Assembly (NCBI GenBank): GCA_030462125.1
Contig: JAKDZT010000007.1
Location: 1-37,091 of the forward strand
Length of the DNA stretch: 37,091 nucleotides
Source of the DNA: Tetragenococcus sp.
GTDB taxonomy: Bacteria > Bacillota > Bacilli > Lactobacillales > Enterococcaceae
Direction: 5' to 3'
Part shown: positions 30,590-33,551 of the stretch, one piece after another
Position numbering within the stretch: the stretch's first letter is position 1
Layout of the letters: each line of letters starts with the position of its first letter
Position numbers and translations under genes: made by a program
The notes under the pieces: model-generated
Told to the model about the DNA's origin: nothing
The model's database searches: none
The model's input: the letters and a program-made list of their open reading frames with translations, nothing else

Positions 30590-30633
30590 AGTTTTGTTCC
30601 TTCTTTCAAACAGATTTGTTATATATACTATAA

Positions 30634-30650
30634 TTGAAAGCGGTTCATAA
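30634..30650. promoter_or_regulatory. Possible cre (CcpA) site upstream of msmK
   Basis: attgaaagcggttcat, degenerate match to TGWAARCGYTWNCW. Confidence 0.4.
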
Positions 30651-30941
30651 AAGCAAGGTAAACCTTTCTACGGGACCCATAAAAAGCCATATGTTATATG
30701 GCAAAGGATAAATAATGAATACGATCTGCTGGAAAAGCATGCACAGAAGGTGTAGGATAAATTTCTTGTAGTTTTGCTGATTCACGTGCCAATTACCTCA
30801 CCAAAAAGAGTTATTTTATTTATTGTAATTAAAAAATGTTATTTTGCCCAACTGAAGAGTAAGTTTCGCTAGAACAATTTCTATTTTTGTTCTTGTTTCT
30901 ATATTACTTCAATCCATGAAGACTTTTTTCGATAAAAGTTC

Positions 30942-30970
30942 TTGACATTTTTATTTACTCCTTGTAAAGT
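30942..30970 (+). promoter_or_regulatory. Promoter of T-box/amino-acid transporter operon
   Basis: TTGACA-17-TAAAGT. Confidence 0.8.
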
Positions 30971-30984
30971 AAAAAACAACTTAA

Positions 30985-31249
30985 ATAACTGACATCGAAA
31001 AGAAGAGTAGCTTTAGTTTTGTTTTAAGAGAGTCTCTGGCAGGTGAGAAGAGACAATAAAATTAGGGTGAAACACATCTTGGAGTCGGCTTTTTGAAAGC
31101 GAAGTAGAAGAGTCCGGGCAGCCCGTTATAGCCAAAGTTATTGATTGATGACTTATTGAGTTTTATTCTGTGAAGAATAAATAAATAAAGGTGGAACCGC
31201 GTAATTGACGTCCTTTAGCCGTGTGTGGCTAAAGGACTTTTTTATTTTT
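30985..31249 (+). ncRNA. T-box riboswitch leader, predicted specifier CAC (His)
   Basis: Stem I with AGUA motif (gaagagtag), specifier loop gtgaaaCACatcttggag (CAC 31073-31075), Stem III TTTATTC-TGTGA-AGAATAAA, T-box AAAGGTGGAACCGCG, terminator GTCCTTTAGCC/GGCTAAAGGAC + T tract. Confidence 0.9.
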
Positions 31250-31261
31250 AATCAGTAACTA

Positions 31262-31352
31262 GTCGAGGTCTTTTCTGTGAGGAAAAGATAAATTGAGGTG
31301 GGAACACGTATTTTGCGTCCTCTGGGTAAAACCAGAGGCTATTTTTATTTTA
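31262..31352 (+). ncRNA. Second, Stem I-less T-box antiterminator/terminator module
   Basis: Stem III-like TCTTTTC-TGTGA-GGAAAAGA, GAGG-TGGGAAC-ACG-tattttg-CGT-CCTC antiterminator, terminator CCTCTGG/CCAGAGG + TATTTTT. Confidence 0.82.
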
Positions 31353-31365
31353 GAGGAGGATTTAT

Positions 31366-32007
31366 ATGAGTTATTTATTTTCTATTTTTCCGCAATTGTT
31401 TGCCGGAATGGAAGTCACTTTTCGATTGTTTCTTTTAACGATTGTGGGTTCCATCCCCTTAGGTATTATTTTAGCCTTTGTATTGCGTAGTCGTTCAAAA
31501 ATTTTTAAACCAATTATTCAGGTGTATGTTTGGTTAATGCGAGGCACGCCCCTTTTGTTACAATTGATCTTCGTTTTTTATGGACTACCTCTTATAGGGC
31601 TCGTTTTTGATCGCTTTGATGCTGCTTTAGTTGCTTTTGTCTTTAACTATGCCGCCTATTTTGCAGAGATTTTTAGAGGAGGCATTCAATCCATACCTAA
31701 CGGACAGTATGAAGCAGCACGTGTGTTACGTTTGTCTTATGGACAAACGCTACGGAAAATTATTATCCCCCAAGTGGTAAAAATTACTTTACCTTCTGCT
31801 GGAAATGAAATTATTAATTTAGTTAAGGATACTTCCTTAGTTTACATCCTTGGCTTACAAGATGTTATGCGTATCGGAAAAGTGGCGATGGAACGTGATG
31901 TTTCCTTAGTCCCGCTTTTAGGTGTAGGTATTATGTATCTGCTTATGACGGCTATATTTACTCTTATCCTTCGTACATTGGAAAAAAGGATGGATTATTA
32001 TCGTTAG
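31366..32007 (+). CDS. Amino acid ABC transporter permease (His/Glu/Gln/Arg HisM/HisQ-like)
   Basis: VWLMRGTPLLLQLIFVFYGLP, FNYAAYFAEIFRGGIQSIPNGQYEAARVL. Confidence 0.93.
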   Translation: MSYLFSIFPQLFAGMEVTFRLFLLTIVGSIPLGIILAFVLRSRSKIFKPIIQVYVWLMRGTPLLLQLIFVFYGLPLIGLVFDRFDAALVAFVFNYAAYFAEIFRGGIQSIPNGQYEAARVLRLSYGQTLRKIIIPQVVKITLPSAGNEIINLVKDTSLVYILGLQDVMRIGKVAMERDVSLVPLLGVGIMYLLMTAIFTLILRTLEKRMDYYR

Positions 32008-32019
32008 GAGGAAAAATCG

Positions 32020-32658
32020 ATGTTAGAACTTAAAAATGTTAGTAAGTCTTTTGGTTCCCAAAAAGTGATTAATTCGTTAGATTTAACGATTCCCGATGGT
32101 TCAATTTTGGCGATAGTCGGACCTTCTGGTGGTGGGAAAACGACCTTGCTGCGGGTTTTGGCTGGTTTAGAAACAGTAGATAGCGGCGATTTCTTATTAG
32201 ACGGCGAAAAATTTGATCCAGTGAATTCAAAAAGTCAAGAGCAAGTAGTAGGTGTCGTATTTCAAGAGTTTGAACTATTTCCACATTTGAGTGTATTTGA
32301 AAATATTGTGCTAGCGCCAAGATTGGCTTTAAAAGAAGAAAAAGAAACTTATACGAAAAAAGCGAAAGGTATTGCCGCACAATTAGGTTTGGATTCATTA
32401 CTGCAGCAATATCCTTATCAGTTATCTGGCGGACAAAAACAACGGGTAGCGATCGCTAGAGCAATGGCTATGGAACCGAAAGTGTTGGCCTATGATGAAC
32501 CTACGAGTGCGTTAGATCCTGCTTTACGTGAACATGTCGAACAAATCATTTTAGGATTGAAGCAACAAGGGGTTACCCAGCTGGTGGTGACACACGATAT
32601 GACCTTTGCAAAAAATATTGCAGATAACTTATTAAAAGTGGATGAAATCAATGATTAA
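32020..32658 (+). CDS. Amino acid ABC transporter ATP-binding protein
   Basis: GPSGGGKTTLLRVLAGLE, YQLSGGQKQRVAIARAMAMEPKVLAYDEPTSALDP. Confidence 0.95.
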   Translation: MLELKNVSKSFGSQKVINSLDLTIPDGSILAIVGPSGGGKTTLLRVLAGLETVDSGDFLLDGEKFDPVNSKSQEQVVGVVFQEFELFPHLSVFENIVLAPRLALKEEKETYTKKAKGIAAQLGLDSLLQQYPYQLSGGQKQRVAIARAMAMEPKVLAYDEPTSALDPALREHVEQIILGLKQQGVTQLVVTHDMTFAKNIADNLLKVDEIND

Positions 32659-32670
32659 AGGAGGAGAAAC

Positions 32671-33468
32671 TTGAAAAAAGTAAAAAGCTTAGGCCTACTA
32701 TTAGCAAGTATTTTTTTACTAGGAGCTTGCACAGCTGGCGAAGACGAGCAAGCAGTCAAAGACGCAGATGTCGTAGTTGGCTTGGATGATACTTTTGTTC
32801 CTATGGGCTTTCGTGATGATGAGGGAAATCTAACCGGTTTTGACATTGATTTAGCAGAAGCCGTATTTGCTTTAAACGATACTGAAGTTGCTTTTCAACC
32901 GATCGATTGGTCAATGAAAGAAACGGAGCTAAAAAATGGGACCATCGATATGATCTGGAATGGTTATAGTCAAACCCCAGAAAGAGAGGAAGACGTAGCG
33001 TTTTCTGACCCTTATATGCAGAATTCTCAATTATTAGTTACTGCAGAAGGGAGTAATATTGATTCAACCGATGAAATGGAAGAAAAAATCCTAGGGGCGC
33101 AAGAAGGGTCTTCGGGTTATAATTCATTCAATCAAGATTCTAAAGTATTAAAAGACATTGTAGAAGGCGAATCTGCTACGCTTTATGATAGCTTCAATGA
33201 AGCATTTATCGATTTAGAAAATGGACGGATCGATGGGCTATTGATTGATAGAGTTTATGCTGAATACTATTTAAGACAGAATGACCAGGAAGATGACTTT
33301 AATCTGATCGAAACGCCTTATGAAGATGAAAATTTTGCTGTGGGTGTTAGAAAAGATAACGAAGAATTGTTAGAAGAAATTAATGATGGTTTTAAAGAAC
33401 TACAAGATAATGGTGAATTTGCAGAGATTTCGGAAGAATGGTTCGGCGAAGATGTTTCGACTGATTGA
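32671..33468 (+). CDS. Amino acid ABC transporter substrate-binding lipoprotein
   Basis: Lipobox LLGAC; MGFRDDEGNLTGFDIDLAEAV, SBP_bac_3 family; TTG start. Confidence 0.93.
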   Translation: MKKVKSLGLLLASIFLLGACTAGEDEQAVKDADVVVGLDDTFVPMGFRDDEGNLTGFDIDLAEAVFALNDTEVAFQPIDWSMKETELKNGTIDMIWNGYSQTPEREEDVAFSDPYMQNSQLLVTAEGSNIDSTDEMEEKILGAQEGSSGYNSFNQDSKVLKDIVEGESATLYDSFNEAFIDLENGRIDGLLIDRVYAEYYLRQNDQEDDFNLIETPYEDENFAVGVRKDNEELLEEINDGFKELQDNGEFAEISEEWFGEDVSTD

Positions 33469-33551
33469 GAAAAATTTAAAGAAAGTTGGGAAGAAACTTT
33501 TGTTCCCTTCTTTTTTTTTGTATAATGGGTAAGAATGAAAAGAGGGATGAC

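Follow-up and report, generated by a model that had tools for sequence, protein, structure and literature searches.

Architecture of the leader and its operon

The window, by which we mean the entire 37,091-nucleotide stretch of Tetragenococcus DNA under analysis, carries on its forward strand the genes of a predicted hisYZX-type transporter and, upstream of them, a T-box leader, the parts of which are collected in Table 1. A search with the Rfam T-box model RF00230, the check proposed in an earlier, sequence-only reading of this DNA, gives one match in the leader at 30986-31218 on the forward strand (122.9 bits, E 5.7e-27, above the gathering score), and the same search of the window returned no second T-box. 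The match is full-length, and its Stem I has the specifier loop together with the AGAGAG and GGUGA-type apical motifs.

Table 1. Features of the leader and operon, with positions in the window.
Feature	Position	Strand	Details and basis
Putative promoter	30942..30970	+	TTGACA-17-TAAAGT; consensus scan, 10/12, a score that alone is no proof of function
Stem I, the only one in the leader	30986..31085	+	AGAGAG at 31027-31032; specifier loop GAAACACA; RF00230 alignment
Specifier	31073..31075	+	CAC (histidine), then A31076; RF00230 alignment; GAA-N-CAC-A conserved in relatives
Stem II and Stem IIA/B	31086..31130 (boundaries approximate)	+	GGGCAGCCCGUUA; RF00230 alignment
Strand X	31136..31148	+	AGUUAUUGAUUGA; partner of x'1 or x'2
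Strand x'1	31148..31154	+	AUGACUU; local partner of X, directly 5' of Stem III-1; partition function, growing transcripts
Stem III-1	31162..31181	+	GUGA loop; folding, z = -3.3
Antiterminator 1	31187..31216	+	AAAGG, bulge UGGAACC (31192-31198), GCGU/ACGU, CCUUU
Terminator 1	31210..31248	+	12 bp and U run, GUCCUUUAGCC..GGCUAAAGGAC-U6; z = -6.3
Strand x'2	31248..31260	+	UUAAUCAGUAACU; 13-bp long-range partner of X, directly 5' of Stem III-2
Stem III-2	31268..31289	+	GUGA loop; folding; 9/9 pairs covary in relatives
Antiterminator 2	31295..31322	+	GAGG, bulge UGGGAAC (31299-31305), ACG/CGU, CCUC
Terminator 2	31319..31351	+	7 bp, CCUCUGG..CCAGAGG, then CUAUUUUUAUUUU tail; z = -4.7
Amino acid ABC transporter permease, HisY-like	31366..32007	+	
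ABC transporter ATPase, HisZ-type subunit	32020..32658	+	
Polar amino acid-binding lipoprotein, HisX-like	32671..33468	+	

Downstream of terminator 1 the leader continues with a second Stem III, antiterminator and terminator, and the series of two switch modules behind one Stem I that the sequence-only reading had described is borne out. The two antiterminators have the identical geometry claimed for them, with AAAGG, UGGAACC, GCG..CGU and CCUUU in module 1 answering to GAGG, UGGGAAC, ACG..CGU and CCUC in module 2, and the loops of both Stems III are GNRA tetraloops. As had also been proposed, the 3' strand of each antiterminator doubles as the 5' arm of its terminator (CCUUU in module 1, CCUC in module 2), and because of this shared strand antiterminator and terminator are mutually exclusive in both modules. 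Only about 20 nt separate the U-run of terminator 1 from Stem III-2, so that a second Stem I cannot fit between them, as the earlier reading had correctly stated. Terminators 1 and 2 are the only ones found on the forward strand of 30600-31500, and both strands of that interval together hold four, against 0.4 ± 0.6 in shuffled sequences. A second complete Stem I with its own specifier, the mark of a full tandem, is absent from the leader, and one Stem I followed by two discriminator/terminator modules, the mark of a partial tandem, is what we find. Judged by its sequence, the leader is a partially tandem histidine T-box, in which one tRNA-His sensor (Stem I, Stem II and Stem IIA/B) is combined with two discriminator/expression platforms.

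The histidine specifier agrees with the transporter predicted downstream, and hisYZX-type transporters of Lactobacillales are reported to be regulated by histidine T-boxes (PMC9413887). The window's permease shares 88-91% identity with its counterparts in five Tetragenococcus assemblies, which places the genome in this genus or very close to it. A search of the window's own assembly (398 contigs) with a tRNA-His pattern gave no match, and the tRNA-His sequences considered here are those of genus relatives. These Tetragenococcus tRNAs have C73, and a G is therefore expected at the N of the UGGN bulge; the window has A at this position in module 1 and G in module 2. In tRNA-His, however, C73 pairs with G-1, which may relax the requirement at N, since the acceptor end may then offer only CCA to the bulge. 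Across histidine leaders L112-L270 the base at N does not follow the discriminator base of tRNA-His (L102-L111): A predominates, and C, U and G occur as well.

Conservation and covariation of module 2

We built a covariance model, R2, from 42 leaders of other genera, leaving Tetragenococcus out. When the search was begun at 31249, R2 recognized module 2 of the window (31251-31361) with 85.6 bits and an E-value of about 1.7e-17, E-values from this model being rough because its calibration was short; module 1 scored 87.9 bits. A weak R2 match at 33453-33531 (18.8 bits) was taken as chance. Both modules are present in all of the other eight Tetragenococcus genomes searched, and the UGGGAAC bulge of module 2 is a change peculiar to the window species within its genus.

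In an alignment of 45 modules, 94.7% of the cells at the paired positions of Stem III-2 and antiterminator 2 hold standard pairs, compared with 76.3% after shuffling and 50-60% in slid controls, and the covariation score is 0.587 versus 0.199 (0/500 shuffles). All nine pairs of Stem III-2 show changes on both sides, and the antiterminator strands vary jointly (GAGG/CCUC, AAAGG/CCUUU, GAAGG/CCUUU and AUCGG/CCGAU); terminator 2 retains 89.6% pairing in the aligned relatives. By these comparative measures module 2 is under selection. The sequence-only reading had held that each switch looks functional and that loss of the antiterminator pairing in relatives would count against it; the conservation and covariation of module 2 across two families, with that pairing kept, support the claim.

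Selection on module 2 might reflect nothing beyond the catching of leak-through by terminator 2, with antiterminator 2 forming at a set rate without tRNA, so that basal expression is lowered and charging is not sensed a second time. Such a backup attenuator would suit the looser bulge of module 2, the sixth position of which is changed in 12 of 86 leaders compared with 0 of 86 for module 1, and the calculated stability of antiterminator 2, which exceeds that of antiterminator 1 in 64 of 66 Enterococcaceae leaders. The stability order is opposite in Lactobacillaceae, however, where antiterminator 2 is the more stable in only 3 of 19 leaders, and we rejected a uniform order of the two antiterminators as a property of the layout. 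Moreover, module 2 keeps the Stem III-2 with its GNRA loop, the antiterminator and the UGG, although the constancy of UGG is partly a matter of construction because our search patterns demanded it. A backup attenuator would also leave the helix X:x'2, described below, without a role, and we regard this explanation as quite unlikely.

Distribution of the partially tandem layout

Searching upstream of the orthologous permease in 107 Enterococcaceae genomes, we found in most genera a pair of T-box cores, separated by about 103-160 nt, and a single AGAGAG and a single CAC specifier. A total of 86 partial-tandem leaders were parsed, 66 of them from Enterococcaceae, 19 from Lactobacillaceae and 1 from another family of Lactobacillales, where our family f1 is identified as Enterococcaceae by its Tetragenococcus members and the name Lactobacillaceae for family f9 is inferred from gene content and leader type. 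Sixty-five of the 66 Enterococcaceae leaders precede the permease; the exception, L229 (G051), precedes a gene for a protein with HisRS-like and HisG domains, which indicates that the layout serves histidine biosynthesis too. The Rfam model reports one T-box per partial-tandem leader, and surveys based on it would therefore undercount the layout. The model's behavior differs only for L257, whose two cores precede the gene of an APC amino acid permease; the Stem I of this leader is unusual, and it lacks a recognizable specifier.

Other arrangements occur in the same family. Seven Enterococcaceae leaders have a single T-box with one module, and two complete T-boxes are found in members of genus g14, in L200, in L207 and in Vagococcus vulneris, both T-boxes of these positive controls being detected by RF00230. 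These full tandems are probably of the kind reported for five Enterococcus species (PMC9413887). In L133, L134, L141 and L143 the cores lie 256-530 nt apart, with a second T-box match of 28-30 bits in the first three and none in L143, and these leaders may represent transitional forms between the full and the partial arrangement.

A core-to-core pattern (100-130 nt) was found in 70 of 400 Lactobacillales genomes, 9 of 397 genomes sampled across the class and 29 of 398 sampled across the phylum, compared with 0, 1 and 2 matches, respectively, for a reversed control pattern. Outside Lactobacillales, in distant Bacillota (L287-L315), leaders with partial-tandem spacing have mostly UUC (Phe) or UGG (Trp) specifiers and precede genes for DAHP synthase (aroF-type), chorismate mutase, trpE, trpD, a sodium:solute symporter and an AMP-binding CoA ligase.

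A helix bridging the sensor and the second module

Strand X, which lies between Stem IIA/B and Stem III-1, has two alternative partners, x'1 nearby or x'2 over 13 bp, and the minimum-energy fold of the whole leader contains the long-range helix X:x'2. In addition to this helix, the sequence-only reading had missed the histidine specificity, the species-specific nature of the UGGGAAC bulge and the wide occurrence of the layout in hisYZX leaders, which extends over Enterococcaceae and many Lactobacillaceae. A free duplex search of large regions was dropped for lack of stringency, GC-rich Stem II segments finding a partner in any sequence, and anchored and partition-function tests were used instead.

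Covariation of X with x'2 was assessed in 53 distinct leaders with the register chosen for each leader. Pairing amounts to 83%, compared with 61.5% after shuffling and 25-44% in slid controls, and there are 175 double-change cells versus 74.6 ± 6 in shuffles (0/500); the relatedness of the sequences remains in the shuffles and is removed in the slid controls. When partners are swapped with the same freedom of register, the 10.1 of 13 pairs formed with a leader's own partner fall to 8.4 within a family and to 7.5 across families. Partition-function calculations give 13.7 expected long-range pairs compared with 2.9 when x'2 is shuffled, and in 16 leaders not used before the corresponding values are 11.6 and 3.6, with 9 of the 16 beating all ten shuffles and L277 having no such pairing. 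The helix is weak or absent in L145, L149, L252 and L277. Overall, comparison across relatives supports the predicted X:x'2 helix well.

Positions 8-13 of X are especially informative, since they form the loop of X:x'1 and are unpairable by x'1. These positions nevertheless covary with x'2, being paired in 69.8% of cases versus 48.8%, with 91 double-change cells versus 47 (0/500) and with 32-51% pairing in slid controls. X:x'2 therefore appears to have been selected itself rather than merely inherited from a duplicated x'1. This observation bears on the view that a full tandem T-box once stood here, that its second Stem I was lost and that module 2 is a remnant in decay, X:x'2 being a by-product of the duplication. 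The full tandems of relatives, Vagococcus included, the single-T-box leaders of seven Enterococcaceae and the seemingly intermediate L133, L134 and L141, with their weak second T-boxes, are what such a history would leave behind. The strong covariation of module 2 across two families does not fit decay, however, and covariation within the X:x'1 loop is not expected if x'2 is simply a copied x'1. As an explanation of the present leader the remnant is highly improbable and already disfavored by these data, although it may correctly describe how the leader arose.

In 22 of 23 full tandems the partition function gives near-zero pairing of X1 to the corresponding segment of the second T-box. Outside Lactobacillales, module 2 often begins with an X-matching strand similar to UCCCGUACC, the statistics being weak, and X:x'2 is weakly supported there in the GC-rich matches of family f14 and in Clostridia. 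The clostridial leaders have an x'-like strand of the UCCCGUACC type before module 2 and give extensions of 4.7 of 8 with their own partner versus 3.9 with swapped partners (10/2000 permutations), a result that is weakened because some X anchors (L303-L305) fell in Stem I.

A proposed exchange of modules under one bound tRNA

Partition functions of growing window transcripts give X:x'1 a probability of 0.64-0.90 up to 31258, and X:x'2 reaches 0.97 from 31266, ahead of the synthesis of Stem III-2. Folding thus predicts a switch from X:x'1 to X:x'2, in calculations that ignore pauses, tRNA and tertiary structure. Transcripts contain x'2 only once terminator 1 has been read through, and the exchange can therefore affect the second decision only. 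Moreover, each window module has 38 nt between the anchor C of its x' strand and its T-box core, the modules themselves lying about 107 nt apart, and in other leaders with a clear local helix the two distances are mostly equal or one nucleotide apart. Given this equal spacing, X:x'2 would bring module 2 to where module 1 had been, with the same geometry to the sensor.

We therefore favor a model in which module exchange lets one tRNA bound to Stem I be tested twice, and give it a probability of roughly 60%. In this model X would pair first with x'1, holding discriminator 1 beside the sensor, and uncharged tRNA on Stem I would allow antiterminator 1 to form and the polymerase to pass terminator 1. 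The emerging x'2 would then displace x'1 from X, expelling module 1 as a loop and bringing discriminator 2 to an equal distance from the sensor; the hand-off might be driven by module 1 refolding into terminator 1 once the polymerase has moved on. The same bound tRNA, or a replacement on Stem I, would have to stabilize antiterminator 2 before terminator 2 forms. Because expression would need two passes, transcripts leaking through terminator 1 could still be stopped, and we propose that the response to uncharged tRNA would be sharpened as a result. The suggestion made in the sequence-only reading, that one tRNA reading licenses two decisions, fits these data, and X:x'2 is a candidate for its structural basis; we infer the hand-off of tRNA and the two-step checking from the same observations.

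The polymerase needs a few seconds to travel between the modules, as assumed from polymerase speed. Release of tRNA from Stem I alone proceeds in the glyQS system at about 0.2 per second (PMC5951919), a rate low enough for the tRNA to stay bound over the seconds assumed. On the other hand, uncharged tRNA on the glyQS core forms an ultra-stable complex (PMC5951919), and a complex of this type could block hand-off from antiterminator 1, which counts against module exchange. That difficulty would disappear if the modules made two independent readings, module 2 binding a second uncharged tRNA-His without Stem I in the manner of an AND gate and X:x'2 only sidelining module 1; the discriminator of module 2 is indeed complete (Stem III, UGGN bulge and antiterminator) and under selection. 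Yet Stem I is the part that captures tRNA rapidly (PMC5951919) and most genera have no second one, and the exact sensor-to-discriminator spacing restored by X:x'2 would be needless, so that we consider independent readings unlikely. Alternatively, X:x'2, which is stable in the full-length leader, might act after both switches, working separately, have made their decisions, for instance through an effect of 5'-end structure on the stability or processing of the readthrough mRNA. Its position directly before Stem III-2, the equal spacing and its timing before Stem III-2 all point to the second decision instead, and make a post-switch role very improbable.

The layout with its bridging helix is likely to be general beyond Lactobacillales. 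The more comprehensive proposal, that one sensor serves two exchangeable platforms, with strand displacement carrying the same tRNA between the decisions, perhaps also in the His, Phe and Trp partial tandems of other Bacillota, seems to us finely balanced.

Relation to known T-boxes and tandem riboswitches

The leader shares with class I transcriptional T-boxes (RF00230) the Stem I and specifier, Stem II, Stem IIA/B, Stem III, UGGN bulge, the competition of antiterminator with terminator and the downstream amino acid gene; it differs in adding a second discriminator and terminator to one Stem I, the model matching module 1 only. Full tandem T-boxes have been described in his transporter leaders of five Enterococcus species (PMC9413887) and in thrS and trp leaders (PMC12452182). 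They likewise place two serial terminators before one operon, and operons of the same type, but have a Stem I for each unit and, by the pairing calculations above, no X:x'2 bridge. In the glycine tandem riboswitch and other contiguous riboswitches (PMC12452182) several elements also control one operon, by means of two sensors and one platform or of two complete switches, whereas the present leader has one sensor and two platforms.

Partially tandem T-boxes were named in a 2020 review among features with an unknown mode of action (PMC7583486), and the architecture is the same as ours, judged by the one-sentence description in that paper. In the literature searched, older T-box surveys being outside its scope, we found no description of a one-sensor-two-platform or partially tandem leader beyond PMC7583486 and PMC9413887, and none of a bridging helix or of platform exchange. 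The T-box class and partial tandems are therefore already known, and the X:x'2 bridging helix with the proposed platform exchange is what is new here. It offers partially tandem T-boxes a concrete, testable mechanism in which a conserved helix would swap platforms under one tRNA sensor, and it predicts which mutations should uncouple the two decisions. If correct, the mechanism would be the RNA counterpart of sequential proofreading, operating while the leader is transcribed.

Other RNA elements were noted in the course of this work. The window contains a 6S RNA at 553-748 on the reverse strand (RF00013, 60.8 bits), and its genome has 21 T-boxes overall, including a full tandem formed by L006 and L007 on contig C40 (13875-14114 and 14151-14388). 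On contig C63, L004 and L021 are adjoining T-boxes on opposite strands (2293-2543 on the reverse and 2569-2757 on the forward strand), perhaps belonging to divergent operons.
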